Source of the DNA: Temnopleurus reevesii
Taxonomy: Eukaryota > Echinodermata > Echinoidea > Temnopleuroida > Temnopleuridae
DNA: 64,000 nt
Direction: 5' to 3'
Assembly (NCBI GenBank): GCA_036244855.1
Contig: BQKZ01000064.1
Span: 1 to 64,000 of the forward strand
Both the position numbers and the translations under genes were made by a program. Positions 8,001 through 64,000 of this stretch are shown here, piece by piece; position 1 is the first letter of the stretch, and each line of letters starts with the position of its first letter. The notes under the pieces were generated by a model. It did no database searches and was not told the DNA's origin. It worked only from the letters and a program-made list of their open reading frames with translations.

Positions 8001-11000
8001 TAGTCCACGAGGGACACATCTGCATTAAATCAGACTACAAATCTTTTTCTTTACACCATTGTAGACAACTGCAGAAAATATGTGAAGACATGTGACCAAA
8101 AGATGTCAATTGCACGGAAACAAATATAACTGTTGGATTTTATTCATTAACATCATTGAAATTCTTATATGTCGTTGTATTATCTTAGATTTTCATGCTT
8201 TCTCTCAAGTTAAGCAATATCTTATAGGATTAAGTTCAGTAGACGGCCCTTATTTTAGCATGTCAAAAAATTGGGATTTTAATATGTGCATGTTCTTTGA
8301 TTAAACATTTTCCAATGTTAAAAACATGTTGGAAAGTTAGAAATTAAAAAAAGAAAAAACACCCTTGAGGGACATTATGCACTATACATATACCACAAGT
8401 AAAGATCTCATTTCTTTATTTTGATCCCCTAGTTGTCCAATAAATTCATGGGTAAAACAAAAAAGCCCTTTCTTTTCATGTTACTATAAATAAATAAGAA
8501 TGGGACTTACATCAATGAGGTACATGCATTGTGAATTGGTAGGATAGTATCCAACTCCATAGTTTGGTGATGAGATTACTCCGGATGATTCAGTTTTGGT
8601 AATATCACATTCTTGAAGAGCGAAAAAAAAGTTGTGTTGACCACAAATAATGATACTGAAAGGATGATCACTTCTTATATTATGCCATTTACAGCTCGCA
8701 ATAAAAATTATTTAACAAACCCTTGTCATTTTTAAAGATATTTTTCACCTATGTTTACTTGAATAATGGATAAATGATGGATAAATTTTATTTGAGCACA
8801 TGGAAAACAGGAGGCTTACAACAAGAGATTATTCTGGAAGGCAAGTAATGAAATAATATTGTTCAAGAGTATTTTATCAATAGGTATATAAATCATCAAT
8901 GTTGGTAAGAAAACAGATTTCTAGAGCAGCCATTTTAGAATTACAAATGACTGCTGAGGTCGTTCAAATGAACGGAACTAGACGAAGGATTTTTTTCAGC
9001 ACCCCAAAATCAACAAAGTTGGTCAGAAAAGTCAACTTTGGTGCACAAAAGCATGAAATACTGCAACAAATGTGCTTCATATGGAAGCCATTTTGAAATG
9101 GCGGTTGAATGCTTTGTTGAAATAAATGGAATCAGGGAATTTTTAATCCCTTATTCATAATCTAGCTTTCTCTACTTGTTTCGATACAAAATTAGAAAAA
9201 ATTATGCAGTGTATCTTAAGTACAGTCAAACCTGTCAATAGTGGCCACTGTCTATAGTGACCACCTGTATATAGTGGCCACTTAAATTGATTCCCACCAG
9301 GTGGAGAGGCCACCTGTCTACAGTAGTCACCTTTTCTGTTTCCCTTGGGGTGGCCTCTGTAGACAGGTTTGACTGTATGCCTTATTTGACAGGGAATAAT
9401 TTTAGTTTTCACATTTGATTAGCAGTTTAAGACATTGAGTAGACATTTCCAACACTTTACTATACAGTACGTTCAACGTAAAAAAAAAAGTTGCTCAACA
9501 AAGCATTATTGTGTAGCAATCATGCTAAAATGCATAGCAAATTGCGATGTGATACCACGTAAATTTGTCCCTGTTTGATAATGTACTCAAGAAGATCAGA
9601 TAAAGGAAAATTAAATTAAAAAAAAAACAAAATTGATGAGGAAAACGCCGTAAAGTTCCATAGCTCATTGGTTTACCTGATAATTCGCAGATCTCCCCAC
9701 TCCAAGTTTGCGGACATTGACACGTGCAGGACTTGTCGATGAAACCTCCGTTTTGGCATTCAGGTGGGGATACGCAGGAGGCATTGCAATTGTAGATTAA
9801 ATTTGCTAGAGAAATGTCGGAGAAGCTGAGTTCTTTGGATTTGCCCATGTACTTCATAGCAAATGGATCTCTTGGTACTATAGTTGGTTGGCCGTTTGTA
9901 GAAAAACCCTAAATATGTGTTCAGTAAAAAAAGTGAAATATGTGTTTAATAGAAAGTCGTAGCAAATCTTAATTCAAATGATTTTGTGTTTCTTCAAATT
10001 CATGACATATTTTTTATTTCATGATTTTTTTTTGCTTGAGCAAAAAGAGAATATATTGGGTTTTTTTTAAAGAATCAAATTCAAAATTTTGTACACAGGA
10101 TAAATGGGAATTTGTCCCACATGATGTCACAGATTCCTTCTATTGCAGATCGCACAAAACCCCATCAGGGTTGTCTTATCTTTGAAAATTTGAATGTTCA
10201 AAACTTTTGAACGGATAGTCCAAAATTTTCAGTTTGTTCATCTGATTTTTCTTAATTCAATGAGAACGCTGCGATGCCAGGAGTTGGTTCCGTTAAACCC
10301 ATAAACTTCTACATATTTTTTTTTATTTAGGCAGAGGCTTAGCCTTTCAATACTTACATAGGCATCATAGTGCATAAGGGATTTCAAATCGTAGGGAACT
10401 CTTGTATCAACTTCGTCAAAGGAATATGAATCAAAGTTATATCTCATATCTGTGCGCATGTTTTGATAGAGGATTTCAATATAGTAATCTCGATCTGGTC
10501 TTGACTGCTCATGCTGGAATCCCATTGCGTGCCCGATCTCGTGAGCTACAATTTCCATCTGCAAATGAAAGTACAAGAAAAGTGAGATTTCATTCGAGCA
10601 ATCAGTAAATTTTTTTTCTAACAGAAGTATATGTAAAATGTAATTGTACAAGAGCATGAATATATAAGGAAAGCAAGTTTTCATTCAAAGATTCATCAAA
10701 ATCTTACAGGAGTATATGAAAATAGTAATTGTGAGTAATAAATATACTTGAATTTATATATACGGAGGATATAAATTGCTTATAAATTGCTGCATATAAA
10801 GGCCTACATGTACATGGAAGCCCAAATAGAGTTTAGGACAAATTAAGAAATATGAATTTTGCGGGATGTTTGTCATATCTTACACACATTTAGAGACTAG
10901 CATAATTTTTCTATGAACCGATTCTCTTTAAAAATTGGAATTTAATTGTTAAATCATAGTGCCGTCTCTTGGTGGTAACTACCGATATATTTTGTTTGTT

Positions 11001-27918: not shown

Positions 27919-28639
27919 CGTGCATACGCTATCTTTCTTTCGTGACTGTGTTTCTCCCATTCTTTCTCTCTCTCTCTCCAAAATTATCGCTCGAGTCGGA
28001 TGAAAGAAAACTACATATTCATTAAATCATTTGATTAAATTATAATGGAAATAGTATAACCTTGTAAAATCTCCACTAGAATTAAAGAATCTGAAATAGA
28101 TTTTTTAACAGTAATATATGACACAAAGAGAACAATCCTTCAAAATAAATCCTCCAGCACAAGTGGAGCCATGAGAAATTCTACGAAATAAAAGTTTCCA
28201 TGCTGTAAGGGAGGGACGGTTCTTTGAAAAATCAGCAAGTAAATAACTGGTTTTAGCTAATATTTATTTGGCAAAACCAGTTTCTATAATAAGCATAATA
28301 TACATCTCATCTAAAGGTCCTCCATTCATAGAACAAATAAAATCTTCCATTTTATCTCAGGCTCACTAGTTTTGTATCAATTAGTGTATAGCATATAAAA
28401 TATATTTCGTTATTGTATAACAATATTTTACCTTTAAAATGTTATGTAACCATACATAAAGCTAGTGTTTTAACAAAATAGAAAAAATAGCTTCAACTAG
28501 ATGAATCATCGACTGCACGCAGTCGAAACTTATGCCTCTGCCATCACACGATCAGAAAGATATCACTGCTTGTTCCATGCCATCAGAAATCAGAAACATG
28601 TTTGGTGAATTTACAAATTTGGGCACTGTGAACTTTGAC

Positions 28640-29510
28640 CCTGTGAACTTAAATCTCATCAGGTCTTCCCCACATGCTACATGTAATACATAATTGACCT
28701 AAGTTTGAAAGAAATTGGTTTAATTTTTATGATGTTAGAGCAATAACAAACTTTTATCCCCTGTGACCTTTGACCTTTGATCCCCTCTCATTCTAACATG
28801 CCAGTGCGTCTACATTATCAAACTAGGTTTGGCAGAAATCGGCTCACTTTAATGTTTTGGGTGATTTTTACAAGCTTTTTGCCCTTTGACCAACTGCACC
28901 CAAAATCTAATCAGTTTATCCTCCCATGCTTGTACATTAATGAGCTAGGTTTGGTAGAAATTGCTTCACTTTTTCTGAAGTTATGGCGGTAACAAGCTAT
29001 TTTTGGTGATTTTTTTTACAAGTTTCGGGGTCTGCGACCTTTGACTCCCTGAACCAAAAATCTAATCAATTTATCATCCCATGCTTGTACATTAATGAGC
29101 TAGGTTTGGTAGAAATTGGTTCACTTTTTCTGAAGTTACGGCAGTAACAAGCTATTTTGGGTGATTTTTTTTTACAAGTTTCGGGGTCTGTGACCTTTGT
29201 CTCCCTGAACCAAAAATTTAATCAATTTATCATCCCATGCTTTTACCTTATTGAGCTAGGTTTGGTAGAAATTGCTTCACTTTTTCTGAAGTTACGGTAT
29301 AGTGGTAACAAGCTATTTTGGGTGATTTTTTTACAAGTTTTGGGGTTTTGTGGCCTTTGACCTTTGACCCCCTTTCATTCTAACATGCCTATACATACTT
29401 GAGCCAAGTTTGGTTAAAATCCATCCAGCAGTTGCAAACAAGTTTCGGGTGCACAGGCACGGACGGACGGAAGGACAACCCGAAAACATAATGCCTCCGG
29501 CATAGAAATG
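28640..29510 (-). repeat. DR1-bearing tandem-unit repeat, reverse orientation
   Basis: Same family as 13160-13825 on the other strand. Units of about 120 bp contain 'tgacctttgacc', 'catcccatgcttgtacattaatgagctaggtttggtagaaattggttcactttttctgaagttacgg' and 'gtaacaagctattttgggtgattttt'. It ends at GGACGGACGGAAGGACAACC and ATGCCTCCGGCA. Assembly duplicate at 36200-37085. Confidence 0.75.
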
Positions 29511-29519
29511 TCAGACACT

Positions 29520-31000
29520 TATCGAACTTTCCGCAAGCTTTTCGTTATTTGATATAGAATTGAAGTCTGCATTGTGCACGACGTACCCTGTTTATGATTC
29601 ACATGGAGATCAAACATTGAGCGTTTCAACACAAGCTACCTTAACCTCTTCAAGAACACAGGACATTAAAGTGGATTTTAAGCAGCCTGTATAAACAAAT
29701 ACATTTTTTCCTTTTTCATGATAAGACATGATAGTGTTTTAGATGTCTATAGAAGCATATCTATAAAACATGCTAAGATGACAGATAAATGATATCTCTA
29801 GTATAGTTGCTGCAAAAAAAAAATGATCGGAAAACAGCACTGGCCATTCAAAATTACTGTTGCATGCACAATTAAAGGTTGACAAAATTCTATGAAAGTC
29901 CTTATCAACACACACTTCAATTTGAATGAAACATTTTTTTTCAGATGAATTGTTATTAGTAAAAGGGGAAATCCAGATGATTTATCATAGAAATATCTTA
30001 TACACCTTAAAAATCAAAGAAGATTTTCGCTCCTCTTCTGATATTTAAACTCCAATTTTATGATTGTAATTTCCACTAGGAACTATGCAATGTTATTGAT
30101 GCAGTCTCCTTGACATGTGTGGAATTTTCCTACAGAAATTGTTGCAAGATACTGATGTGGCAAGAATTATATGTTCAAATCACAATCGTTCTTTTCTTTT
30201 TCAAACCTGACTCATACGATAACTTGTCATCAACTTTTGCTTAAATGCATTATCTAGTGATTACGCAGCCCTCTAAAAGCAGGGTGAAGAAAGAAAGTCA
30301 GATCTTTTCAGAAAACATGAAGATATCTGCTTTGTATGATATCTATATCAAATTATCATCTGGACTTCCCCTTTAACCAAAAGAAAAGAAAGCAATAAGT
30401 TCAAACATTGCTCATAAACAATATATGAAGAGTACATGCATATGTGCTGTAGTTTTGAGAAGGCATCACGTGAAAATATTGATGACCAAAAAAAGTTTAT
30501 GCTTAGACAACACTCAATATCGGGGTCTCCTGTTTCATTATCTATATAACATAAATATTTCATGATACCAGTAAATAGGTTTCTTCTTCTCATACACATT
30601 GTACAAATACACAACACTATCTTTAGGAGTGTGAAACCCAATTTGTCATCAATCACTCTCACATAATTATCTTATTTTTCCTAATCTACTATAATTAAGA
30701 AAACCTAGCCTTGGTTTTTAGTGTACAGTTTACCTCATTTACATCACATTTATATTTCATGATATTTAGAGAGTTTTGTACAAAAGTATAAAGTAAAAGC
30801 ATGTTCTGAAATGCCATATATTTATAAACATACTCATATTTCCTTTTTTTCTCTAATATTCTACTTAACATTAAGAAAACCTAGCCTGTAATACTGATGC
30901 TTCTAAAGAAATTGAAAGAATTTGATTAATGCAGCTCATTTGCATCAAATTTCAGTGACATTTCAAATTGCTATGAAATTGTCCATTGAGAATTTACAAC
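29520..31000. other. Region downstream of the UBR gene
   Basis: AT-rich intergenic sequence without recognised exons. The motif 'attaagaaaacctagcct' occurs near 30693 and 30871 as part of a diverged ~175-bp direct repeat ('atttacatcacatttat...' against 'atttgcatcaaatttca...'). Duplicated at 37097-38580. Confidence 0.4.
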
Positions 31001-31001
31001 T

Positions 31002-31007
31002 TTTATT
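31002..31007 (-). promoter_or_regulatory. Putative polyadenylation signal of the UBR gene
   Basis: AATAAA on the minus strand (plus strand TTTATT) is the first canonical hexamer I find after the stop codon at 32358. If used, the 3' UTR is about 1.35 kb and contains the whole array of terminal exon copies. Confidence 0.45.
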
Positions 31008-31737
31008 TCACCTCAAATTTTCTTACCCGTAGGATGTATTGGAATACTCAGCTCAAAAGGGCAGAAGGTGAGCTGATATTAGTTTGAGGGCATAATGATT
31101 ACCTTCAAACTGTCGGAAATGTGACGTCATGGGGAACATTATCACGGTATCTACTTATTCTAATGGTCAACCAAGATACTGTGCAAAAGCCAGAGTCTGT
31201 GAATACGGGTTGCTATCGACTCATCCAGAATCTTCACCAAGTATCCAAACAATATATTGTCATGGTAACTACATTTTCGGCAAGGGCCCAAATTCTGAAA
31301 AACTGTGTTATCTTCTATATTAGCAAAAATATGTTAATTGTGATAACAAGTCTAAATTACGATGCGCCATTGGTTAATCTTTGTGCAATGTCTGTAGTTC
31401 TGACTTATGGTTGAAAGAGACCTTTGCGCATCCACCAATATAATAAGTACTTATTGCGCGTAATTAGCTTTTGTTATGACAGTTAATATCGGTTTTCCTT
31501 AACACTGAAGTTAACAGTTTTCAGGATTTGGGCCAAGTTGATTGGGTACAACAGAGTCTGTGAAGCCTGTTTGTTATCGACTCAGTCTGAATATTCATCC
31601 GGTATCCAAATGATACATTCTCAATTCCTGCTGACTGTAAGGCAGATACTATGTGACAGTCATAATTTGTGAAGCCTGTACAGTGCTAGTCAGGTATAAA
31701 AATGTTCATCAAATATCTACTTATATTGTCATGGTAA

Positions 31738-31831
31738 CTACATATTCTGCCAGTTGATGAGTGGAGAGACGCCTTCAAGTTTCCTTTTAATGGTTGCCTG
31801 GATATCATGCGACAGCCTTAATTTGTGAAGC
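31738..31831 (-). pseudogene. Terminal exon copy A, open and splice-competent
   Basis: On the minus strand AG|G CTT CAC AAA ... ATG TAG. Preceded by GTACAG, it begins with the same phase as the true last exon, so the penultimate exon could splice to it. It would add LHKLRLSHDIQATIKRKLEG and VSPLINWQNM. Duplicate at 39315-39408. No transcript evidence is available. Confidence 0.6.
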
Positions 31832-31891
31832 CTGTACGCTGTTGACCAGGTATAAACGTTCATTCAATATCCAAGTATGTTGTCATGGCAA

Positions 31892-31990
31892 CTACATATT
31901 CTGCCAGTTGATGAGAGGAGAAGCGCCTTCAAGTTTCATACTAACGGTCATCTGGATACCGTGCGACTGCAACAGCAACAATTTGTGAAG
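31892..31990 (-). pseudogene. Terminal exon copy B, open but acceptor out of phase
   Basis: Reads LHKLLLLQSHGIQMTVSMKL then EGASPLINWQNM-stop. It carries a short codon-multiple insertion (CTG TTG), so the frame survives. The flank is ACAAG|CTTCAC, lacking the extra G, so splicing there would shift the frame. Confidence 0.6.
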
Positions 31991-32042
31991 CTTGTACGCT
32001 GTTTACCAGGTATATAAATGTTCAAATATATTGCCATGGTAA

Positions 32043-32143
32043 CTACACATTCTGCCAGTTGATGAGTGGAGAGGCACCTTCAAGTTTCCAACTAACAGTT
32101 GCTTTTATACTATGCACCATGCGACAGCTATAAATTGTTAAGC
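32043..32143 (-). pseudogene. Terminal exon copy C, disrupted
   Basis: An in-frame TAG follows LNNL and indels break the remaining frame. The NWQN coding block survives in another frame. It is the only one of the four nearest copies that is clearly dead. Confidence 0.6.
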
Positions 32144-32203
32144 CTATACGCTGTTGACCAGTGATAAATGTTAATCCAATATCCGAGCATATTGCCATGG
32201 TAA

Positions 32204-32297
32204 CTACATATTCTGCCAGTTTATGATTGGAGAGGCGCCTTCCAGTTTCCTACTAACGGTTGCCTGTATAGGGTGCGGCAGCCATAAATTGTTAAGC
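32204..32297 (-). pseudogene. Terminal exon copy D, open and splice-competent
   Basis: Reads LNNLWLPHPIQATVSRKLEG then ASPIINWQNM-stop, with ATACAG|G giving the correct phase. It is the first copy after the true stop codon and the one closest to it in sequence. Duplicate at 39781-39874, where Q of NWQNM is L. Confidence 0.6.
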
Positions 32298-32357
32298 CTG
32301 TATGCTGTTGACCAGGTATAAATGTTCATCCAATGTCCAAGTATGTTGTCATGGCAA

Positions 32358-34907
32358 TTACATATTTTGCCAATTTATGATCGGAGAGGCGCCTTCAAGT
32401 TTCCTACTAACGGTTGCCTGGATACCGTGTGACAGCCAGAGTTTGTGAAGCTCACTGTAACACTCCTTGCTCAGATGTAAAGGGTTGCCACGCCTTGAGG
32501 GATAAAAAGAAATTCAAGGTGCATTAAATTAAGGTGGAAGAGGCATACAAATAATCTTGTGACTAAGGCTTCACAGTACAACGAGTTATTTTTCTTGGAA
32601 ATGTGAGTGGTCCTGAAAAGGACCTACTCACTCTCTACATTTCGATGGGCATGCTCTCATCATAAAATCTTGCCTGAGATGAGATCTTCAGGAGAAGTTT
32701 ACAAGAAAATGCTCATTGAGACGTCGAGAGTGGATAGGGCCTTTTCTCATAGCTGCCGACATGAGCCAGAAGAAATTAGAAATAATTCTGATAGAAATTA
32801 GTAATCTTCACATATTTTACATTGAAGTGAATGGTGCTCATATTGGAAAAATTCTTTGCTAGAAAAAAATCTTAACCAGGTTTGACACCAAACTCGACAA
32901 ATCTGAGGCCAAAATAAGTAATGATTACTAAAAACAGTTGGCAGCTACGTTTTCTAGACCACTCGCATTTCCAAGAATTATAAATGATAAGCCTTCTACT
33001 CATTGTTCATCTGGGAGTGAAAACAAATAATCTTAATGAAAAACCCTAAAATACAAAATCTAATTAGCTGTCTCATGATGGAGCAAAAAATAGAAATTGC
33101 ACAATCCTCAACTTCATATGCAGACAATGTCAAATCTATGTTGTGAATTTGAAACACCAATCAGTATAGAATTGAAAATTGTACCAAGAGCACTGGGGAC
33201 TAAGGAAATGACGTCTTTCAATATCAGGGTCAAACATATTTTGGAAAGAATCTTGTACCCTTATTATAAATTTGCCATTAATCCATTTTCACAATTCTTT
33301 GTCCGCAAGTACGTCACAGGCTCTGCCAAATTTGCAGACCACACAGATCCCCACCAGCAGCAGGGATCGTGATATCATTGAGAATATAACAATGCGTAAC
33401 TTTTGAACGGATGATCCAATTTTGCCCAAATTTTAACATTTCATTCATCTGATTCGTCTTCATTCTAGGAGAGCACGATAATCCAAGGGGTTGGTCCCCT
33501 TTAAAAGTATAAGAAATTTAACTCACCTCAGACCAGGATCAGGCTCTCCATACTCATCTAGATAGGGTGGGGTGTACGAACATCCTTGACTCTTTCCTGA
33601 CATCAGTAAAAGATTACATTCTCTCACTCTGTAAAAATGACATAATATAATCATAAGCCATTGAATTCCATTGTAAAATTTGAATTTTCATTCTGGTTAT
33701 TTCACCACTAGGATGAATCCAAAATTTCATAATCATATTTCATTCTAGTAAAAATTAGGACCACAATCACCTGAGGGAACCATATAATTATGAAAAGTCA
33801 AATTATTTTGGGAAAGTCATGACATACATATTACAGGCAGCTCTTCCTAAATTAATCTCCTGGGACATTACAAAATCTGTTTGATGTAGGAAAAATTTGA
33901 CTGAGAAGACCTAGATAAAAAAGGGATGACAAATGATTTTTTTTTTAATTCCATAGACTTAGGGAATCATTTGACTTGGGGAAGAGAGTAGAACTTGCTA
34001 TGGGTTCTGCCTGCATCCTCCTCCATAGAATAGAGCCATTAACAACTGCATGCCAAGCCTCTATTGTTATCTTATCTACTCGTTCCGCTGCATGCTGCCC
34101 CCTTTACATTTGGCACATAGTTTTATGTTCTTCTCGGTGATATGCAGCTAAATATTTCATTCATACACACTACAGTTCACAGAGAGACATTAAATAAAAA
34201 CAATATCAAGTTCAAAATATGCGTCTTTACCTTAGAAAGACTCCTGATCCAGCACCACACATGATAGCATGCGCTGTGCAAGCTCCAACCGATTCACCAT
34301 TAATCTCTCTCTGACAGCAGTAGCTCTGAGAACACACCACAGTGCCACACACAAGGCACATGGCTGGTGCTCGACTATCACTCTGGGTTGTACTATTTCC
34401 ACGTGGGCACCTAAGCAAACATAAGCAAAAGACATCATATTGAAAATAGGATATCAGCTTAGACGGTGTTGTTCAGTTATTGTGCATATTATTGAGCAAA
34501 TTCAAGAACATTTTTTAATGCACACTTGCAGTTTACATCACAGGCTTCGTACATACTGACTGTAGGTCCAATCACGCTCTCGATGGTCGAAATAAGATTT
34601 GGTCCCGAACGTTGAGCGAGACTTGAAACAAAATTGTCACCAAAAATTACAGCGCGAGCTTCTCGCGTTTCTGACTTCTTGCGAAAAATGCTGAGGGGGG
34701 GGGGCGGGCCTAAACAGCCCCCTCCCCTCAACATCTTTCGGCGGAGATCAGAAGGGGGGGCCAAATAAGCCCCCCTTCCCCCATGGACTGAAGTGATCGA
34801 AAGACAAAAGATACCCAAAGTTTACTTACGCAAATAATGACCTGTCATTCATGAGATCACTGTAGTCTCGAGGCAATTCAATCAGCTGGTTGATCTCAAT
34901 AGGATAC
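32358..34907 (-). CDS. UBR1/UBR2-like C-terminal exons, left contig copy
   Basis: Duplicate or allelic copy of the last four UBR exons: u 34907-34830, v 34410-34231, w 33628-33527, x 32493-32358 (stop TAA 32358-32360). It is fully open and phase-compatible, and differs from the right copy by Asp/Glu in the PYLDDYGE motif (DEYGE here). It is cut off upstream by the contig join at 35486, so it is not a separate gene. Confidence 0.85.
33300..33510 (+). repeat. Interspersed repeat family A, copy in the UBR intron
   Basis: Contains 'gcagcagggatcgtgatatcattgagaatataac', 'taacttttgaacggatgatccaattttgccc', 'ttcatctgattcgtcttcatt' and 'ggttggtcccctttaaa', matching copies at 3610, 10110 and 19955. Assembly duplicate at 40877-41090. 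Confidence 0.6.
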
Positions 34908-37900
34908 CTAGGGAAACAAGAATATAAAGAAACAATTTTTCACCATCATTATGCCCAATATTTTTTTTCAGGACATTGAAAGATGATAAATATCACTGAT
35001 AGGATTTTGGCCTACCAAAGGGTCATGATTTTAATTTCTGTCAGCAATAAATTTATCCAAATTATGCTGCATTTAACCCAGGTCAGGTTCATGGATACAG
35101 GTAGGAAGAAATTCTTTAAATGCAGTGAGCACCAAATGGTAGCCTTGTGACTCTATTCCACCCTTTCACATTTCTTCACTACCCCTTCCTCTTTCCCCTC
35201 CCACCTCACAAGATCAGGATCCTGTTCTGTCATCTTGATTCTGATAGATGGATGTGAGCACTGTCTTCTGATCATGTTGTCCATGATGGGTGATTCTGAG
35301 CAGTCTCGAAGGCTAGGTAGGTTGATAAACCCGTAACACTATACCTATCCCTCCTATCACTCACTCACTCTCTCTCTCTCTTTCTCAATCTCTTATCTCG
35401 GCCCTACCATACCTATCTCACTAGATCAGGTTCTTGTTCTGTCAGCTTGATTCTAAAAGATGGATGCGAGCACCATCTTTTGATCNACGCTATCTTTCTT
35501 TCGTGACTGTGTTTCTCCCATTCTTTCTCTCTCTCTCTCCAAAATTATCGCTCGAGTCGGATGAAAGAAAACTACATATTCATTAAATCATTTGATTAAA
35601 TTATAATGGAAATAGTATAACCTTGTAAAATCTCCACTAGAATTAAAGAATCTGAAATAGATTTTTTAACAGTAATATATGACACAAAGAGAACAATCCT
35701 TCAAAATAAATCCTCCAGCACAAGTGGAGCCATGAGAAATTCTACGAAATAAAAGTTTCCATGCTGTAAGGGAGGGACGGTTCTTTGAAAAATCAGCAAG
35801 TAAATAACTGGTTTTAGCTAATATTTATTTGGCAAAACCAGTTTCTATAATAAGCATAATATACATCTCATCTAAAGGTCCTCCATTCATAGAACAAATA
35901 AAATCTTCCATTTTATCTCAGGCTCACTAGTTTTGTATCAATTAGTGTATAGCACATAAAATATATTTGTTTATTGTATAACAATATTTTACCTTTAAAA
36001 TGTTATGTAACCATACATAAAGCTAGTGTTTTAACAAAAAAGAAAAAATAGCTTCAACTAGATGAATCATCGACTGCACGCAGTCGAAACTTATGCCTCT
36101 GCCATCACACGATCAGAAAGATATCACTGCTTGTTCCATGCCATCAGAAATCAGAAACATGTTTGGTGAATTTACAAATTTGGGCACTGTGAACTTTGAC
36201 CCTGTGAACTTAAATCTCATCAGGTCTTCCCCACATGCTACATGTAATACATAATTGACCTAAGTTTGAAAGAAATTGGTTTAAATTTTATGATGTTAGA
36301 GCAATAACAAACTTTTATCCCCTGTGACCTTTGACCTTTGATCCCCTCTCATTCTAACATGCCAGTGCGTCTACATTATCAAACTAGGTTTGGCAGAAAT
36401 CGGCTCACTTTAATGTTTTGGGTGATTTTTACAAGCTTTTTGCCCTTTGACCAACTGCACCCAAAATCTAATCAGTTTATCCTCCCATGCTTGTACATTA
36501 ATGAGCTACATGTAGGTTTGGTAGAAATTGGTTCACTTTTTCTGAAGTTATGGCGGTAACAAGCTATTTTTGGTGATTTTTTTTACAAGTTTTGGGGTCT
36601 GCGACCTTTGACTCCCTGAACCAAAAATCTAATCAATTTATCATCCCATGCTTGTACATTAATGAGCTAGGTTTGGTAGAAATTGGTTCACTTTTTCTGA
36701 AGTTACGGCAGTAACAAGCTATTTTGGGTGATTTTTTTTTACAAGTTTCGGGGTCTGTGACCTTTGTCTCCCTGAACCAAAAATTTAATCAATTTATCAT
36801 CCCATGCTTTTACCTTATTGAGCTAGGTTTGGTAGAAATTGCTTCACTTTTTCTGAAGTTACGGTATAGTGGTAACAAGCTATTTTGGGTGATTTTTTTA
36901 CAAGTTTTGGGGTTTTGTGGCCTTTGACCTTTGACCCCCTTTCATTCTAACATGCCTATACATACTTGAGCCAAGTTTGGTTAAAATCCATCCAGCAGTT
37001 GCAAAGTTATCGCAGTAACAAGTTTCGGGTGCACAGGCACGGACGGACGGAAGGACAACCCGAAAACATAATGCCTCCGGCATAGAAATGTCAGACACTT
37101 ATCAAACTTTCCGCAAGCTTTTCGTTATTTGATATAGAATTGAAGTCTGCATTGTGCACGACGTACCCTGTTTATGATTCACATGGAGATCAAACATTGA
37201 GCGTTTCAACACAAGCTACCTTAACCTCTTGAAGAAAACAGGACATTAAAGTGGATTTTAAGCAGCCTGTATAAACAAATACATTTTTTCCTTTTTCATG
37301 ATAAGACATGATAGTGTTTTAGATGTCTATAGAAGCATATCTATAAAACATGCTAAGATGACAGATAAATGATATCTCTAGTATAGTTGCTGCAAAAAAA
37401 AAATGATCGGAAAACAGCACTGGCCATTCAAAATTACTGTTGCATGCACAATTAAAGGTTGACAAAATTCTATGAAAGTCCTTATCAACACACACTTCAA
37501 TTTGAATGAAACATTTTTTTTCAGATGAATTGTTATTAGTAAAAGGGGAAATCCAGATGATTTATCATAGAAATATCTTATACACCTTAAAAATCAAAGA
37601 AGATTTTCGCTCCTCTTCTGATATTTAAACTCCAATTTTATGATTGTAATTTCCACTAGGAACTATGCAATGTTATTGATGCAGTCTCCTTGACATGTGT
37701 GGAATTTTCCTACAGAAATTGTTGCAAGATACTGATGTGGCAAGAATTATATGTTCAAATCACAATCGTTCTTTTCTTTTTCAAACCTGACTCATACGAT
37801 AACTTGTCATCAACTTTTGCTTAAATGCATTATCTAGTGATTACGCAGCCCTCTAAAAGCAGGGTGAAGAAAGAAAGTCAGATCTTTTCAGAAAACATGA

Positions 37901-38709
37901 AGATATCTGCTTTGTATGATATCTATATCAAATTATCATCTGGACTTCCCCTTTAACCAAAAGAAAAGAAAGCAATAAGTTCAAACATTGCTCATAAACA
38001 ATATATGAAGAGTACATGCATATGTGCTGTAGTTTTGAGAAGGCATCACGTGAAAATATTGATGACCAAAAAAAGTTTATGCTTAGACAACACTCAATAT
38101 CGGGGTCTCCTGTTTCATTATCTATATAACATAAATATTTCATGATACCAGTAAATAGGTTTCTTCTTCTCATACACATTGTACAAATACACAACACTAT
38201 CTTTAGGAGTGTGAAACCCAATTTGTCATCAATCACTCTCACATAATTATCTTATTTTTCCTAATCTACTATAATTAAGAAAACCTAGCCTTGGTTTTTA
38301 GTGTACAGTTTACCTCATTTACATCACATTTATATTTCATGATATTTAGAGAGTTTTGTACAAAAGTATAAAGTAAAAGCATGTTCTGAAATGCCATATA
38401 TTTATAAACATACTCATATTTCCTTTTTTTCTCTAATATTCTACTTAACATTAAGAAAACCTAGCCTGTAATACTGATGCTTCTAAAGAAATTGAAAGAA
38501 TTTGATTAATGCAGCTCATTTGCATCAAATTTCAGTGACATTTCAAATTGCTATGAAATTGTCCATTGAGAATTACAACTTTTATTTCACCTCAAATTTT
38601 CTTACCCGTAGGATGTATTGGAATACTCAGCTCAAAAGGGCAGAAGGTGAGCTGATATTAGTTTGAGGGCATAATGATTACCTTCAAACTGTCGGAAATG
38701 TGACGTCAT

Positions 38710-39934
38710 GGGGAACATTATCACGGTATCTACTTATTCTAATGGTCAACCAAGATACTGTGCAAAAGCCAGAGTCTGTGAATACGGGTTGCTATCGACT
38801 CATCCAGAATCTTCACCAAGTATCCAAACAATATATTGTCATGGTAACTACATTTTCGGCAAGGGCCCAAATTCTGAAAAACTGTGTTATCTTCTATATT
38901 AGCAAAAATATGTTAATTGTGATAACAAGTCTAAATTACGATGCGCCATTGGTTAATCTTTGTGCAATGTCTGTAGTTCTGACTTATGGTTGAAAGAGAC
39001 CTTTGCGCATCCACCAATAATAAGTACTTATTGCGCGTAATTAGCTTTTGTTATGACAGTTAATATCGGTTTTCCTTAACACTGAAGTTAACAGTTTTCA
39101 GGATTTGGGCCAAGTTGATTGGGTACAACAGAGTCTGTGAAGCCTGTTTGTTATCGACTCAGTCTGAATATTCATCCGGTATCCAAATGATACATTCTCA
39201 ATTCCTGCTGACTGTAAGGCAGATACTATGTGACAGTCATAATTTGTGAAGCCTGTACAGTGCTAGTCAGGTATAAAAATGTTCATCAAATATCTACTTA
39301 TATTGTCATGGTAACTACATATTCTGCCAGTTGATGAGTGGAGAGACGCCTTCAAGTTTCCTTTTAATGGTTGCCTGGATATCATGCGACAGCCTTAATT
39401 TGTGAAGCCTGTACGCTGTTGACCAGGTATAAACGTTCATTCAATATCCAAGTATGTTGTCATGGCAACTACATATTCTGCCAGTTGATGAGAGGAGAAG
39501 CGCCTTCAAGTTTCATACTAACGGTCATCTGGATACCGTGCGACTGCAACAGCAACAATTTGTGAAGCTTGTACGCTGTTTACCAGGTATATAAATGTTC
39601 AAATATATTGCCATGGTAACTACACATTCTGCCAGTTGATGAGTGGAGAGGCACCTTCAAGTTTCCAACTAACAGTTGCTTTTATACTATGCACCATGCG
39701 ACAGCTATAAATTGTTAAGCCTATACGCTGTTGACCAGTGATAAATGTTAATCCAATATCCGAGCATATTGCCATGGTAACTACATATTCAGCCAGTTTA
39801 TGATTGGAGAGGCGCCTTCCAGTTTCCTACTAACGGTTGCCTGTATAGGGTACGGCAGCCATAAATTGTTAAGCCTGTATGCTGTTGACCAGGTATAAAT
39901 GTTCATCCAATGTCCAAGTATGTTGTCATGGCAA
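38710..39934 (-). repeat. Terminal exon array, right-contig copy
   Basis: Same array as 31130-32357, offset about 7577: copies A' 39315-39408, B' 39469-39567, D' 39781-39874. Present in both contigs, so it is not an assembly slip at one place. Confidence 0.8.
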
Positions 39935-40070
39935 TTACATATTTTGCCAATTTATGATCGGAGAGGCGCCTTCAAGTTTCCTACTAACGGTTGCCTGGAT
40001 ACCGTGTGACAGCCAGAGTTTGTGAAGCTCACTGTAACACTCCTTGCTCAGATGTAAAGGGTTGCCACGC
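39935..40070 (-). CDS. UBR exon x: terminal coding exon (right contig)
   Basis: RGNPLHLSKECYSELHKLWL, SHGIQATVSRKLEG, ASPIINWQNM and stop TAA, matching the UBR1/2 ends 'RGNPLHL...WQ' closely. Acceptor CTCAAG|G. Its left-contig copy is 32358-32493. Followed by the array of copies described for 31130-32357. Confidence 0.95.
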
Positions 40071-43000
40071 CTTGAGGGATAAAAAGAAATTCAAGGTGCA
40101 TTAAATTAAGGTGGAAGAGGCATACAAATAATCTTGTGACTAAGGCTTCACAGTACAACGAGTTATTTTTCTTGGAAATGTGAGTGGTCCTGAAAAGGAC
40201 CTACTCACTCTCTACATTTCGATGGGCATGCTCTCATCATAAAATCTTGCCTGAGATGAGATCTTCAGGAGAAGTTTACAAGAAAATGCTCATTGAGACG
40301 TCGAGAGTGGATAGGGCCTTTTCTCATAGCTGCCGACATGAGCCAGAAGAAATTAGAAATAATTCTGATAGAAATTAGTAATCTTCACATATTTTACATT
40401 GAAGTGAATGGTGCTCATATTGGAAAAATTCTTTGCTAGAAAAAAATCTTAACCAGGTTTGACACCAAACTCGACAAATCTGAGGCCAAAATAAGTAATG
40501 ATTACTAAAAACAGTTGGCAGCTACGTTTTCTAGACCACTCGCATTTCCAAGAATTATAAATGATAAGCCTTCTACTCATTGTTCATCTGGGAGTGAAAA
40601 CAAATAATCTTAATGAAAAACCCTAAAATACAAAATCTAATTAGCTGTCTCATGATGGAGCAAAAAATAGAAATTGCACAATACATGTACTTCATATGCA
40701 GACAATGTCAAATCTATGTTGTGAATTTGGAACATCAATCAGTATAGAATGGAACATTGTACCAAGAGCACTGGGGCCTAAGGAAATGACGTCTTTCAAT
40801 ATCAGGGTCAAACATATTTTGGAAAGAATCTTGTACCCTTATTATAAATTTGCCATTAATCCATTTTCACAATTCTTTGTCCGCAAGTACGTCACAGGCT
40901 CTGCCAAATTTGCAGACCACACAGATCCCAACCAGCAGCAGGGATCGTGATATCATTGAAAATATAAAAATGCATAACTTTTGAACGGATGATCCAATTT
41001 TGCCCAAATTTTAACATTTCATTCATCTGATTCGTCTTCATTCTAGGAGAGCACGATAATCCAAGGGGTTGGTCCCCTTTAAAAGTATAAGAAATTTAAC
41101 TCACCTCAGACCAGGATCAGGCTCTCCATAATCATCTAGATAGGGTGGGGTGTACGAACATCCTTGACTCTTTCCAGACATCAGTAAAAGATTACATTCT
41201 CTCACTCTGTAAAAATGACATAATATAATCATAAGCCATTGAATTCCATTGTAAAATTTGAATTTTCATTCCATATTTCACCATTAGGATGAATCAAAAA
41301 TTTCATAATCTTATTTCATTCTAGGAAGAATTAGGGCCACAATCACCTGAGGGAACCATATAATTATGAAAAGTCAAATTATTTTGGGAAAGACATGACA
41401 TACATATTACAGGCAGCTCTTCCTTAATCAATCTCCTGGGACCATACAAAATCTGTTTGATGTAGGAAAAATTTGACTTAGAGGACCTAGATAAAAAAGG
41501 GATGACAAATGATTTTTTTTTTAATTCCATAGACTTAGGGAATCATTTGACTTGGGGAAGAGAGTAGAACTTACTATGGGTTCTGCCTGCATCCTCCTCC
41601 ATAGAATAGAGCCATTAACAACTGCATGCCAAGCCTCTATTGTTATCTTATCTACTCGTTCCGCTGCATGCTGCCCCCTTTACATTTGGCACATAGTTTT
41701 ATGTTCTTCTCGGTGATATGCAGCTAAATATTTCATTCATACACACTACAGTTCACAGAGAGACATTAAATAAAAACAATATCAAGTTCAAAATATGCGT
41801 CTTTACCTTAGAAAGACTCCTGATCCAGCACCACACATGATAGCATGCGCTGTGCAAGCTCCAACCGATTCACCATTAATCTCTCTCTGACAGCAGTAGC
41901 TCTGAGAACACACCACAGTGCCACACACAAGGCACATGGCTGGTGCTCGACTATCACTCTGGGTTGTACTATTTCCACGTGGGCACCTAAGCAAACATAA
42001 GCAAAAGACATCATATTGAAAATAGGATATCAGCTTAGACGGTGTTGTTCAGTTATTGTGCATATTATTGAGCAAATTCAAGAACATTTTTTAATGCACA
42101 CTTGCAGTTTACATCACAGGCTTCGTACATACTGACTGTAGGTCCAATCACGCTCTCGATGGTCGAAATAAGATTTGGTCCCGAACGTTGAGCGAGACTT
42201 GAAACAAAATTGTCACCAAAAATTACAGCGCGAGCTTCTCGCGTTTCTGACTTCTTGCGAAAAATGCTGAGGGGGGGGGGCGGGCCTAAACAGCCCCCTC
42301 CCCTCAACATCTTTCGGCGGAGATCAGAAGGGGGGGCCAAATAAGCCCCCCTTCCCCCATGGACTGAAGTGATCGAAAGACAAAAGATACCCAAAGTTTA
42401 CTTACGCAAATAATGACCTGTCATTCATGAGATCACTGTAGTCTCGAGGCAATTCAATCAGCTGGTTGATCTCAATAGGATACCTAGGGAAACAAGAATA
42501 TAAAGAAACAATTTTTCACCATCATTATGCCCAATATTTTTTTTCAGGACATTGAAAGATGATAAATATCACTGATAGGATTTTGGCCTACCAAAGGGTC
42601 ATGATTTTAATTTCTGTCAGCAATAAATTTATCCAAATTATGCTGCATTTAACCCAGGTCAGGTTCATGGATACAGGTAGGAAGAAATTCTTTAAATGCA
42701 GTGAGCACCAAATGGTAGCCTTGTGACTCTATTCCACCCTTTCACATTTCTTCACTACCCCTTCCTCTTTCCCCTCCCACCTCACAAGATCAGGATCCTG
42801 TTCTGTCATCTTGATTCTGATAGATGGATGCGAGCACCGTCTTCTGATCATGTTGTCTTCTGAGCAGTCTCGAAGGCTAGGTAGGTTGATAAACCCGTAA
42901 CACTATACCTATCCCTCCTATCACTCACTCACTCTCTCTCTCTCTTTCTCTATCTCTTATCTCGGCCCTACCATACCTATCTCACTAGATCAGGTTCTTG

Positions 43001-43119
43001 TTCTGTCAGCTTGATTCTAAAAGATGGATGCGAGCACCATCTTTTGATCTTGTCATCCATGATGGGTGATTCTGAACAGTCTCGAAGGCTAGCTAGGTTG
43101 ATACACCTCCCATCACTCA

Positions 43120-43153
<34 letters not shown>

Positions 43154-46100
43154 TATCTCGACCCTACCATACCTACCTCACTAGATCAGGTTCTTGTTCT
43201 GTCAGCTTGATTCTAATAGATGGATGCGAGCACCATCTTCTAATCATGTCGTCCATGATGGGCGATTCTGAGCAGTCTAGAAGGCTAGCGAGATTCATCG
43301 ACAGTCCAAGGTACTTGCAAAGAGGCTCAAACTCATCTATGCCTGCATCTATAGTCAAGAAAACAGTGTAAAAGCTACAGTAGGTGGCAATGGATTTGAT
43401 TTGATCTCAAATTGACAGTAATTTTGTGAACTGGCATATGAACAAGGAAACAAAGAAACCCGACATAGCAACAAGCGCAGTGACATAAAATTGAAAAATA
43501 TGTTAATTCTCAAGCATTTATATCACGCAATGATCTTCTGTTTGTGTGTGACTCCTATCAACCATTGATGAAATATTGGTCCTTTTTCCTGTACAAAAAT
43601 GAAATGATCAAAAAGGAATCATAGCTAAGAATTTTATCAATGAATACACATTTTGACATTTATGCATCAAAATAGTCCAATGACTAGTATCTTTTCTTTT
43701 CAAAATAACTTACTGACCTCATTTTGTTTCATAACATTCAACGTCATCAAATATCTTAGTAATTTGGCGCATAAATAACATTGTTGGTTTTCATGAAGAA
43801 CAGAGAAGATACAGATAAAATCAGATTTTTACAATATATCCAAGTCAATATTGAGGAATAGAATGGGGTTTCACACATTTGAGGAGAATGATGGACTTTA
43901 GCAAAAGTTGATGGATTTTTTAATAATTCATCTGCTGCATTCACACGCTTCAAGACTGCTGATTACATCAGGCAACATGGTTTCATTTCTTATCTCTCTT
44001 ATCCTAATTATTGCTAAATCATAATATACAATTGCATTGGAAGAGCATTCTTGAAATCTTTGAACATTGCAGTAAAAATAGGAAGCATTCAAAACAAAAT
44101 AATAAATTACAAATTTAGAGACCAGGGTGGTGTTTCACCAAGTCGTTCTTAAAGTTACGCACAACTTTATGTTCGACTGGTATCAATTTTGGCGCTGAAT
44201 GCACGCACTATTATGAATCATTACATGCAAGAAGGGTTACCAGTCAAACGTAAAATCGTGCGTAAAGTCTTTCTCATCTTGGTGAAACACCTCCCAGGGT
44301 TGTGTTTTATAAATTTTCGTTGAGGTACAGACGACTCTACGAATGACTGGTGACCATTTCCTACACTCGATAACTGCTGGCGGTAAATCGCATCTGAGAA
44401 AGGGTCATCGGTCATTCCTTGACTCGTGTGTAGATCCACGAAGAGCTTATAAGAAATAACACTGGGCGGTGTTACACCAATAAGCAATTCAAAGCAAATA
44501 GAAACAGCAAACCATGCTTTCTACAAACTTGATGTCTAAAATAGAGAATTAAGCCCATCCCGAATGTATTTTAAATCTTTACTTGAACTTCAAACTCACT
44601 CTTATTTCCTCTAAATTTCAAACTCCCTTACACAAGCAAGTAAAAGCAAAGGGAAAGACCAAACCATGCTTCCAACAGGCTTGGCATCTATAATAGAGAA
44701 CAAAACTGAAGTTCTCTATATTTCAAACTCACCTCCTTATGCAATCATGTCAAAGCAAGGGGAAATGTCACACCATGCTTTGACTTCTAAAATAGAGAAT
44801 TAGCCTACCCTGAGAGTATTCTGAAACTTGGCTTTGGATTTCTAACTCACTCTGAAGTTCTGCCGGACATGGCACGCCTGTCAGGAAATGGAAGAAGAGG
44901 GCAGCAGAGCGAAGGAACGGCATGCACGAAACCTGGACGTGATTGGCCAACTGCCATCCTGGTGGGAGTGATGAGGTTTCCAAACTGGAAAGAGAGAAAA
45001 AAAATTGTGATTGCTATCAGAGTTTCAGCTGTATCATCATGATATAATTCATATTTAGATGAAACTGTAGAATTCTTAGTGGCATGTAAAAAGGCTCCCA
45101 TAGGCTGGGTATAACATGTACTCAATGCCAGTACAAAATGGTAAAATGGGAATTAAGTACTTCTTCCACTATGGTATTTCGTGTAACAGGATTTACCATC
45201 TCGATGGGGAATTGTTTAAACACTTCAAGATATCATAAAATTCATTTTTAAAAAAGAGAGAAGAATATTGATTTGTTGATGATACAAAGTTACCTGACAT
45301 ACAATTCTAAAATATTTCACTTCATTATCATTCCCACTGAGATGTCAACAATTTTTTTTAATGTCAACAACAGATAAATGAGTAAATACAACAGCAGAAA
45401 AGGAAAGAGGAATACTTTAAGTGCAAAGAGGAAAGAGGAAAAAGATTATTCAATAAGATAGCTCTACATACCCTGCATATTGTCTGAGCATTGCACAAGC
45501 TTGAAGCAGATCATGTCCTTCTCTGCTAACATCAACACTGCTTCCTTCCTCCTCCATCGATTCTTCAACTAAAAAAAAAAAATTAGCAAGAATTTTTTTA
45601 TATTACATAGAATGAGACTAAAAATAAAGTTTAAAACACATTCAGTAAATGGGTAATTCATCAAATTTGTAAACCTTTCTGTACATATTAGACCTCACTT
45701 ATGTCCTATTTTCATTCACTTTGTAAACTATTTCTATACAAATTGTATATGAATAATGGAACGTTATTGGAGATAACTTTCAAATTTTGGTTGATGGAAT
45801 TGGCTATTTTCATATAACATTCTGTTCCATGACAATGCAACTGGTTTAGTAAAAGAATTAAAATTACACATATAGCAAATGGGATTTCTAAAAGTCAGAT
45901 ACTATAAAACAGAAATTTAAACAAAAAGAAATTTGAGCAGATTTCGCTGTTAAGAAGTCATATGACTCACAAGAGTAAGATAGCAGGGACCATTTTCAGA
46001 AACTGACCCGGTGATTCTATTGATTTACTGCAAAATTCTTAATATCACTCACCTGGAATATCTCTTGAAGCACAGAGTAGTACCTGTACAAGATGAGCTG

Positions 46101-49100: not shown

Positions 49101-52100
49101 CTGTAATGGTTTGCTTCATTCACTCTTACTTAAAAATGAGATATGAAACTGTTCCTCAATATATACAGTGTAATTAAAATTTCCAATATCATTACAACAC
49201 TGCTACAAACAAACAATGATAAAAATTGCACTATAATATGATTCTACATGAAAATGTATATCACTATGGACTTTCATGAAAGCAACCTAATTGCATACCT
49301 CTATGCATGAGCAAAATTGCACTAAGCTCTATTCCCTTCTACACAAAAATATAATATTTACAATTGAAAATGTTGATTTACCCAACAACTAAATATCTAC
49401 AATTCTCCTCTTCAAAAATCATGGGGATTTTCAAACAAGATTTTTTACATGACACCACAATTGGTTTAGAAATAGGATTAAGAGTACACATACTGTAAAT
49501 GGATTTTTTTTTAATCTAGATACTGTAAAACAATATAATACATAAAATTATAGTGTATTTTGGTGCTCATAAATGTCCTACGAATCTATCATGTAGCTCT
49601 ACAAATTATAATAGTTTCCCTATAAGAGGATTTTACAATGTAAATGAAGGATGTAAATGGAGACATACCTGAAAGAAGTCTAATTGCATGTCTCTGTACA
49701 TGAGCATAGTTACACAGAGCGCTATTTACTACCGAGTATCTGATCAGACAACGAAGACAGTCCATCTGAAAAATATATATACATATATTTATTATATTTT
49801 ACTGTGCTGGTCTTAAAAAATGTTCAGGAGATTCTAAAATCATGTTTATTATCTTCTTCATGTTTTCACTATCAGTTTGTTTGGCTTTGTTTCTAAAATG
49901 CTTTGAGCACCATAAATTGAACCTGTGCGCTATATAAATAGCCATCATTATTATCATATCTTTTCAAAATGTTGCTTGAATTGTGAGTGATTTCACAAAT
50001 TGGCACTATTGTAACAAAACACACAAAATAAATACTATGAAAGGATGTTTCACAAACTAGAATATATGCACACAGGACTGTTGTACCAAAACACAAAATA
50101 CTATGAAAGGAAGTTTGATACTACACATATAGCATCTGTTTTTCAATTACAGTGTACAAATGTATCCTTATATTACATTATCATCATTATCGGATGATGC
50201 ATTGTAAAAACATATAATACACTGTCTTCATTTTCAACAAATTTGCTCTTACTAGCAACGAACACTACAAGAAGGTTAATTGGCTAGGTCTATGTAAAAT
50301 GAATGACATAACAAAATTAGATTACATTAAATTAGATTAGGTAATATCCTTAGCAAGGAAAGATGAATTTGATACCCTATCAAAATGATGGTAAAACACT
50401 GCTACATAGCTTATGCAAGATTGACTCTATAATTTCGAAGTCAATAAGGCTCTAGTTATTCTAGAATAAAAGCTGATAAATATTTCACATAAAAGTCTTG
50501 TGTTTTACCTGTCTTTGTGATAATGCTCCAAACAGTGCTTTTCCTTCATTCCTCAACTGGGTTTCTAGAGAGAAATGATTAAAAAAATGGGGAAAATGAT
50601 TGGAACATATGCTTGTATTCATTACTCTGAGGTGATCAATAAAGTACATTTATATATTAAAAAAAAAAAATCCTATTCTAATCCTAACGTTTGCAACATA
50701 GTGACAAAAATGCGCTTTCACATTCATTACATCTTCTCCATCAAACTCCTTGCCTGTACCTCCTCCCTCGGTCACATTTATATAAAAAAAAAAAAAATCC
50801 TATTCTAATCCTAACGTTTGCAACATAGTGACAAAAATGCGCTTTCACATTCATTACATCCTCTCCATCAAACTCCTTGCCTGTACCTCCTCCCTCGGTC
50901 ACATGTTCCAGAAGATTATATAGAATGAGTTGTTGCAGGAGAGATTTCATCACTTGCAAGATGCATGCAAATCAAGTGCAAATTGGAATTTATACACATT
51001 CTGATTCGCTCTTTGTCTGCTGCATTATGAAGATATGATTGTAAGCCAGATTTCCCATAGATTATATCAACATACCGACACCAATTTTAGACATATTTTG
51101 GTGAACCCAAAGCTTCAATATTTAATTGAATCATCATCATCATAATATCCTAAAAAATATTAACTAACAAATGTGTCCCTGACTGGGATTACATTCTTTA
51201 CATTATGTGAATGTAAAATCCATTTTGATCTGCAAATTTCAATAAATGGCCTTCACAATCAATTCTAGCATTAATCATGGTCTTACTAATAATATCAATA
51301 AATCTGAAATTAACATTGAAAAAAAGGGATTGGTAATGAGATCTGTCACAGCGACAAGGAGTCATTTTCCGACAGTTCCCATAGCAACTGTCAGCGATCG
51401 TGCTTTTCATCCAATCACAATCAAGGAATTTGTCAGTGCTGACTAATTGTCTCTGCGACAAATCTTGATGAAACACCCCCCGTACTAACCTGTAACTTGT
51501 ACTGTATAGGCACATGTATTCCAGGCTAAGATAGCCATTCTACTATCATCATCATGAGGCATCACACCCAATCCCACCTACAGTTTGGACAGAAATAACA
51601 TTGAAATGTATCGATGAATAGAATAAAAGGAACCAAGTCCCTGCATACTCATGTAGTTGAAGAGGTAGCTTTCATAATTGTATTGTTATCAATAATGTAT
51701 TTACTTTGGAATTTGTTAAACTTGTACTGTATAGGCACATGTATTCCAGGCTAAGATAGCCATTCTACTATCATCATCATGAGGCATCACACCCAATCCC
51801 ACCTAAAAATTGGACAGAAATAAAATAAAAAAGTACAAAAATAAATGAAATAATATTCATATACATAAAGAGGTAACTTTCATCTCAACTGATTATATTA
51901 CTATCTATATTAATGCATTGAATTTTGACTTAGTTTAAATGTAATGGTATATTCTTTAGATCTTGACCATCTGCTAAATGTCTCATATCATCACAATATT
52001 TAAGAAATATCAGTGCAATAACTGTCAGAAACAAGTAAAAAAATATAAACATTTTCTCAGACTGTAAAAAAATGCAATGAAATAAAATGTCGATAGAGAG

Positions 52101-54716: not shown

Positions 54717-56271
54717 TTTCTTCATCTTCATCTTCACCATTATCATCATCATCAACAACATCATTATCACCATCATCACCAATATCATCATAACCACCAA
54801 CACCAATACCAACACTATCGCCATCATCATCATCATTCTCATTATGTCCCAGCTAGTTCAATTCACTGATCTTGTGATATGTGACTAGTTATCACTAGAG
54901 CCCCAAAGATCATTCATCATATACATATATTTGCTCCTAGTCTGGTAAAAGTTAAAAAGTAACAAGCGAGTTGATACTTTTATTGACTTCACATCTAAAT
55001 GTATCACATATTTTTAGAATTTCATTCAGCGGTTGTCAAGAACTACAAAGCTGGAAACAAAATAGACACGACACTTTGCATGCAATTGCCCATAGTTGGA
55101 ATGAAAATCTGATTTCAACTCACCCTTGCCAGCAAGTAGAATGCATGATGTGGCCACATGTGCTTACATGGGTCCCCCAGTAAAGGTCTGTGCTGGCGAA
55201 CAGGGGGTCAAATTTCTCTGTATGGTGGAAAAAACAATGCAACATAATGATACATGCTAACATTAAACTTGAATGATGGAGAAGATAATGCCAAATCCTG
55301 ATAGCATTCAAATTGGAATATGAAAGAAGAAAAAGAAAGAAAGAAAACTTGAGGGCAAAGAGAATACTAAATGATAAATTGACATAGCATTCAGTTTGGT
55401 TTATCTCTTCAAACAACACAATTGTTAAGCTTTCAGACATCATAAATCTAAATGTCAATTTACACACAACGCAAAGAGTGTTCAGAAAACCATTCTGCGG
55501 AGAAATAGTCTCAGAGGAATAAATACATAAGAAATTAAATTGTAAGCAAATGGCAGCGTTCTCTTACATATATTCGTACTTCAACTCATTAAACAAATTT
55601 GACCTAGAAACAATAGAATATAAGATGAATGCCAGTGATTGTTGAAGTTTAATTTGTAGATGTTTGATCATGGATTTAAAATCTCACATGTCTTACCTCC
55701 ATCCTCTATTGTCTTCTCTCTCGCCTTTGAAAGAACTGTGGATCTGGAAGAAAAAATTAAAAAGAGAACATAATGATAAATTTATGTTATATCACACTCA
55801 TTTTCATTATCATAATGTGTTCTGCAATATAGGACCAAACATCAATTATAATCAAGTGATTTGTCTCATAAAATTCTTTGATTAAGCCATTTGGTTATAA
55901 GCATTCTAATCTTTTTTCAAATGACTACTTTACAGTGACTATTCCACACCAGTCTCCATTTCTGGCCTGTATATCCTGGGCCAGTTCATACTATCTATGA
56001 TGATAGATGTGTTCTTACCTTTGAATGAAAGCTGCAAGGACCATTGCTTTACCATCAAAGTGAATATCTTCCTCCTCCTGACAGAGTATACAGGTAGCTG
56101 TGGAAGACTCGGCCATCACAGAAGGGCTCTGGCGTGGACCAAGGCAACATGGGTACTCGGGCACTGCTACATCACTGTGAGAATACAAAAGAAATAGGTT
56201 TGAATCATCACCAGTATCATCATCATCATCATCATCACCATCATCATCATTATCATCATCAACATCAACAA

Positions 56272-56309
<38 letters not shown>

Positions 56310-59914: not shown

Positions 59915-60259
59915 CTGTGGGTTTGAACAACAATTGATTGAAAATGACATAAACAAGTACATAATAACCTATTAAAATCCCTACCTGACAGGTCCATGCA
60001 TGCATCAAGATATATCATTGGGGTAACATTGGACAGTTGGAAAATGTCTTGATCTTATCCAAATTGTGGCACAAATTCATTTGAAAATATTCATTATCAG
60101 CATTACAACATTGTACATGTAAAAGGCCCCCCCCCCCCTTTTCTTTATTATTTACCTTTATGAATTATATCTTATACCACAATCTCCATAGCAGTATTTT
60201 CCAATGTCTGTAAATCTTGTGATTGTATTTTTATTGAATAAAACACATTACAAAATTCN

Positions 60260-60790
60260 TAGCATCTGTTTTTCAATTACAGTGTACAAATGTATCCTTA
60301 TATTACATTATCATCATTATCGGATGATGCATTGTAAAAACATATAATACACTGTCTTCATTTTCAACAAATTTGCTCTTACTAGCAACGAACACTACAA
60401 GAAGGTTAATTGGCTAGGTCTATGTAAAATGAATGACATAACAAAATTAGATTACATTAAATTAGATTAGGTAATATCCTTAGCAAGGGAAGATGAATTT
60501 GATACCCTATCAAAATGATGGTAAAACACTGCTACATAGCTTATGCAAGATTGACTCTATCATTTCGAAGTCAATAAGGCTCTAGTTATTCTAGGATAAA
60601 AGCTGATAAATATTTCACATAAAAGTCTTGTGTTTTACCTGTCTTTGTGATAATGCTCCAAACAGTGCTTTTCCTTCATTCCTCAACTGGGTTTCTAGAG
60701 AGAAATGATTAAAAAAATGGGGAAAATGATTGGAACATATGCTTGTATTCATTACTCTGAGGTGATCAATAAAGTACATTTATATATTAA
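60260..60790. repeat. Start of the third redundant contig (matches 50130-50660)
   Basis: After the N at 60259 the sequence repeats 50130 onward, with SNPs such as 'aaggaaag' against 'aagggaag'. It includes a second copy of UBR exon n (60639-60694, minus strand). Probably the other haplotype. Confidence 0.85.
60639..60694 (-). CDS. UBR exon n, duplicate in third contig
   Basis: Same ETQLRNEGKALFGALSQRQ exon with the same splice sites as 50509-50564. Present because of contig redundancy, not as an extra exon. Confidence 0.8.
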
Positions 60791-63700: not shown

Positions 63701-64000
63701 TTTATATATAAAAAAAAAAAATCCTATTCTAATCCTAACGTTTGCAACATAGTGACAAAAATGCGCTTTCACATTCATTACATCCTCTCCATCAAACTCC
63801 TTGCCTGTACCTCCTCCCTCGGTCACATTTATATATAAAAAAAAAAAATCCTATTCTAATCCTAACGTTTGCAACATAGTGACAAAAATGCGCTTTCACA
63901 TTCATTACATCCTCTCCATCAAACTCCTTGCCTGTACCTCCTCCCTCGGTCACATTTATATATAAAAAAAAAAAATCCTATTCTAATCCTAACGTTTGCA
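60791..64000. repeat. 127-bp minisatellite array, about 25 copies, running off the window
   Basis: Near-perfect 127-bp units (CCTATTC at 60802, 60929, 61056, 61183 ...), each consisting of an A-run, 'tcctattctaatcctaacgtttgcaacatagtgacaaaaatgcgctttcacattcattacatcctctccatcaaactccttgcctgtacctcctccctcggtcacatttatatat'. The first unit differs by one base (CATCTTCTCC). It is intronic in the UBR gene by comparison with 50640-50905. 127 is not a multiple of 3, and TATATAA stops recur on the minus strand. Confidence 0.95.

Follow-up and report, generated by a model that had tools for sequence, protein, structure and literature searches.

Tandem copies of a terminal UBR exon fragment behind the stop codon in Temnopleurus reevesii, probably decaying as 3′ UTR

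Behind the stop codon of a UBR1/UBR2-type gene, whose 3′ end occupies the minus strand of the window (the whole 64,000-nucleotide stretch analysed), lies an array of incomplete repeats of that gene's last coding exon. Very probably this is an ordinary tandem duplication of an exon fragment past the stop codon, with the decaying copies presumably carried as 3′ UTR. The original prediction had weighed two readings, a 3′ UTR made of decaying exon copies and a gene that chooses among C-termini. The first is supported: codon constraint was not detected on the copies, their protein-like part has diverged at least as much as their UTR-like part, and four of them (B, E, F and G) no longer have an intact frame. 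The second is not supported, given that the acceptors are at background strength and that copies A–D each have a competing AG.

The gene end and the array behind it

The assignment to a UBR gene was made in the original prediction and is now backed by protein matches. The 69-aa tail matches PDB chains of human UBR1 (9wbw_A, E = 9.2e-19) and human UBR2 (9wbv_A, E = 3.5e-18), with the alignment to both reaching the C-terminal NWQ/DWQ, and a 205-aa tail matches Pfam PRT6_C (E = 3.7e-63). Homology to UBR1/UBR2-type C-terminal tails is therefore present. A RING-like ORF at 56018–56368 had no Pfam match (this is one ORF, and the identity of the gene is read from its tail), a protein search using the last exon found no homologue, and Rfam at gathering thresholds gave no match in the whole window. 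When the 205-aa tail was searched against the animal's own 558-Mb genome, 25 candidates came up, all of them scored, and the 19 matches were every one inside the window; no other copy of the UBR gene end was therefore found. The penultimate coding exon (exon w, 33527–33628, minus strand) has the donor CTGAG/GTGAGT after 33527, in phase 2 (a slash within a splice site marks the junction). The last coding exon, RGNPLHL...NWQNM (32358–32493, minus strand), begins at the acceptor TTTTTATCCCTCAAG/G and ends in the stop TAA at 32358–32360.

The original prediction also gave a second set of coordinates for the gene end (41105 and others). The stretch 27926–35485 is 98.9% identical to 35487–43049, the two being joined at a single N (35486), and the 'second' gene end at 39–41 kb is most likely the same locus in an unmerged contig overlap. 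A real second gene end there was rejected, as near-identical duplicates abut at one N. Between the two versions there are 45 mismatches, of which 29 fall within 32926–33925, and 7 gap events; the versions may be alleles, or the differences may be errors. The last exon is identical in both. Within the array, copy A has the only two substitutions, each of which alters an amino acid (H/Y and NWQ/NWL), and there are two gaps, one of 2 nt at 31438–31439 in a MITE-like element and one at the edge of the compared stretch. Exon w also differs by one residue (LDEYG/LDDYG), and since a real exon likewise has an amino-acid difference, the copy A substitutions are minor evidence. Two other single Ns were seen in the window. 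The one at 6359 is flanked alike (4484–6357 and 6360–8233, 99.8%), probably another unmerged overlap, and the stretch after the one at 60259 repeats 50130–50904 and then runs into a 127-bp satellite (60776–64000, 25.4 copies, 99% match), of which a two-copy version lies at 50646–50904.

TRF reports a 154-bp period at 31651–32451 (5.2 copies, 77% matches, 6% indels, score 858), and weaker copies reach down to about 31130. The array comprises five tandem copies of about 154 bp, each made of the exon's 3′ two-thirds plus flank, and then two remnants, in agreement with the at least four tandem copies of a 154-bp class that had been proposed. We letter them A to G counting from the exon (A = 32297, B = 32143, C = 31990, D = 31831); the original prediction apparently counted from low coordinates (A = 31831, B = 31990, C = 32143, D = 32297). 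All lie on the minus strand. Copy A (protein-like part 32204–32297) and copy D (31738–31831) are open to NWQNM-TAG and have a weak CAG/G acceptor in phase. Copy B (32043–32143) carries two in-frame stops and a 7-nt insertion, while copy C (31892–31990) has a 6-nt insertion, is open to NWQNM-TAG and has its AG out of phase. Copy E (31600–31675, low end approximate) is diverged or truncated with an in-frame stop, the copy F remnant (31251–31566) is split by a MITE-like element at about 31283–31534, and the copy G remnant (31130–31205, limits approximate) lacks an AG at the homologous place. It had been claimed that the repeats precede any AATAAA, and this holds: from the stop codon to 31007 the minus strand has none, variant signals being present (e.g. 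ATTAAA at 31791), and the first lies at 31002–31007. Because they are placed behind the real stop and before the first AATAAA, the extra units would be 3′ UTR.

Identity to the exon, unit by unit, is 0.837 (A), 0.799 (B), 0.876 (C), 0.846 (D) and 0.800 (E), and the closest pair among all units is A–B (0.891). The human UBR1 and UBR2 tails align over the whole exon, and we therefore read the exon as the ancestral piece and the repeats as its copies, a direction that we infer. With the MITE-like element removed, a search of the 558-Mb genome with the array DNA, in which common words were skipped, yielded 2 candidates, both scored, and 4 matches, all in the window. An origin from a dispersed repeat was rejected, the genome matches being confined to this window; the copies are adjacent, on the same strand and without a dispersed-repeat pattern, as in tandem exon duplication. 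An earlier and wider genome search with array DNA returned mostly matches to the MITE-like element of copy F (31283–31534, ends GGGCCCAAATTCTG and CAGAATTTGGGCC), which has at least 38 further places at 76–83% or better (40 of 258 candidates in the same genome scored).

A local tandem duplication, by unequal crossing-over or slippage, would have captured the 3′ two-thirds of the terminal UBR exon with about 60 bp of downstream flank. The native acceptor was not copied, because the array units begin inside the exon; the duplicated piece, without a native 3′ splice site, would then have been amplified further. A 276-nt match within the array at a distance of 466 bases hints that growth went partly in three-unit steps. 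Presumably as part of the mature 3′ UTR, the units would have drifted, gaining stops, indels, deletions and the MITE-like insertion, while the true exon stayed constrained.

A similar arrangement was observed at an internal exon of the same gene (43177–43348), which is followed in the intron by two tandem partial copies with a 196-bp period (42776–43348, minus strand). In the first copy the donor is gone (AGGTAGGT changed to AGATAGGT), and the second keeps AG/GTGGGA and shows a 12-nt in-frame difference between the contig versions; acceptors here were judged by eye. This second array suggests a local tendency to tandem duplication, rather than a special device of the terminal exon.

Divergence and a recurring motif in the UTR-like part

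Among copies A–D divergence is 0.181 in the protein-like part and 0.135 in the UTR-like part, and the protein-like part is the more diverged in 8 of 10 pairs. The lower divergence of the UTR-like part would suit a quite improbable alternative, that the array has been retained as a regulatory element, in the 3′ UTR or in the DNA, around a near-palindrome close to GTTGCCATGGCAAC in each unit. This motif, which we take to be RFX/X-box-like, recurs 3′ of the NWQNM stop in the array units (31256–32358). Nine matches with at most 2 mismatches were found in the window against 0.18 expected, and 8 of the 9 are array units, with both contig versions counted. However, the motif was picked out after the fact, and because the units are copies of one another the eight matches amount to one event.

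Acceptors, frames and coding constraint

A second alternative, which we consider very improbable, is alternative 3′ splicing, in which exon w would be joined to copy A or D, possibly also to further copies, so that the UBR tails lack RGNPLHLSKECYSE. In translations read across the junction only A and D of 6 copies yield an open tail to NWQNM, and joining at either gives an open tail of 31 residues in both contig versions, with CAG/G in phase. The original prediction of acceptors in phase with the exon w donor at 33527 thus stands at 32297 and 31831. The match does not count separately for each copy: of the six copies A–F, five (A, B, D, E and F) have AG/G, and because it descends from the exon's own TACAG the phase match is one shared fact.

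Acceptor strength, taken as a simple score of pyrimidines over the 16 positions −20 to −5, argues against such splicing. The counts for copies A to G are 8, 8, 7, 8, 9, 6 and 5, and none of the seven reaches the 11–14 of 16 seen at five real acceptors. Of 252 background AG sites (28000–32360, array included), 56% have at least 8 pyrimidines and 11% at least 11. By this score a competent in-phase acceptor was found at none of the copies, and a pyrimidine tract is absent at A and D. Moreover, A, B and D have a further AG 7 nt upstream and C has one 8 nt upstream, whereas 4 of the 5 real acceptors are free of any other AG over 40 nt, and in the fifth one occurs at 26. Copy C has AAG/C at this site, and a join there leads into a different, early-stopped frame although the copy's own frame is intact. 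The spliced product would also lose a segment that is identical in the human UBR1 and UBR2 alignments.

Three intact frames are the other point in favour of usage. Copies A, C and D are open in one frame to NWQNM-stop and B, E, F and G are broken, which confirms that three of the four nearest copies hold the frame; the claim of a codon-multiple insertion that preserves it also proved correct, the copy being C in our lettering and the insertion 6 nt long. The frame is intact in A, C and D, and in A and D the phase too, at 14–17% divergence from the exon. In a neutral decay simulation with 12 chosen settings, the probability of at least 3 of 4 intact frames was 0.03–0.29 and that of at least 3 of 7 was 0.16–0.75. 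Three open frames are therefore within expectation for neutral descent, save at the harshest settings (P = 0.03 for 3 of 4). Variable columns fall 11/7/12 over the three codon positions.

The comparison of dN/dS among copies that had been proposed was carried out, and it detected no coding constraint on them, at the low power of 30 codons. Among the copies, five of the six pairwise omegas are below 1 (0.26–0.71; B–D 1.07), and between exon and copies the values are 0.15–0.24. We then used a branch codon model over the 30 codons, with the terminal branches of the copies under one omega and the exon plus the internal branches under another. For the exon with A, C and D, two omegas beat one in all 3 topologies (2ΔlnL 8.9–11.0), with 0.002 on the exon side and 0.68–0.79 on the copies, and fixing the copies at 1 costs a 2ΔlnL of 0.2–0.6. 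With copy B added (stops masked, insertion omitted; 7 tree strings, several of them the same unrooted), 2ΔlnL was 5.5–9.9, the exon side had an omega of 0.032–0.095 and the copies 0.67–0.78, and the cost of fixing the copies at 1 was 0.3–0.8. The true exon is under strong purifying selection (omega 0.002–0.095). The omega of the copies (0.67–0.79) is not distinguishable from neutral, although at the low power of 30 codons weak constraint may act on them. The low pairwise dN/dS between exon and copies was rejected as a sign of constraint on the copies, the branch model placing it on the exon's own branch.

An extension of the splicing idea is just as hard to credit: A and D would be spliced at a low level, dropping RGNPLHL, and the array would be a shifting set of tail variants, different from allele to allele (NWQNM/NWLNM in copy A). 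Were the copies in use, the tail of a conserved N-degron ligase would vary. Least probable of all, bordering on negligible, is gene conversion in which the copies serve as a sequence store that recombines with the last exon and renews the C-terminus: similarity is patchy, the exon being nearest to A in the protein-like part (0.144) and to C in the UTR-like part (0.067), but the exon is strongly constrained and identical between contig versions, and patchiness on so short a scale may reflect noise or unequal crossing-over.

Taken as a tandem exon-fragment duplication decaying behind the stop codon, the locus would be a compact example of a terminal exon seeding a 3′ UTR repeat, with the intact-looking frames a by-product of descent. 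It also carries a caution for gene predictors, as such copies would be called exons.

Comparison with known systems

A literature search did not return this locus, but its scope was too limited to establish that nothing has been published on it. Minisatellite-like arrays in transcribed tails are short-period tandem arrays, as is the one described here; unlike in those, the founding unit is recognisable as the gene's own coding exon. Mutually exclusive tandem exons comprise a whole exon with its splice sites, whereas these units lack the exon's 5′ third and its native acceptor. Known tandem coding-exon duplications share with the array the tandem copies of a coding exon, but here the copies are without the exon's own splice site and without detectable constraint. 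According to one study, exon duplications are abundant in UTRs (PMC9013439). Requiring at least 80% identity, that study reports parent-gene homologs for almost 15% of the nucleotides in human UTR exons, compared with about 2% for exons overall, and the same trend is given for fly and worm (PMC9013439). Like the tandem exon duplications treated there, the present case has homologous exon copies beside the exon in the same gene; unlike them, it consists of an exon fragment without the native acceptor, in at least five copies past the stop codon, and is known from its sequence alone.
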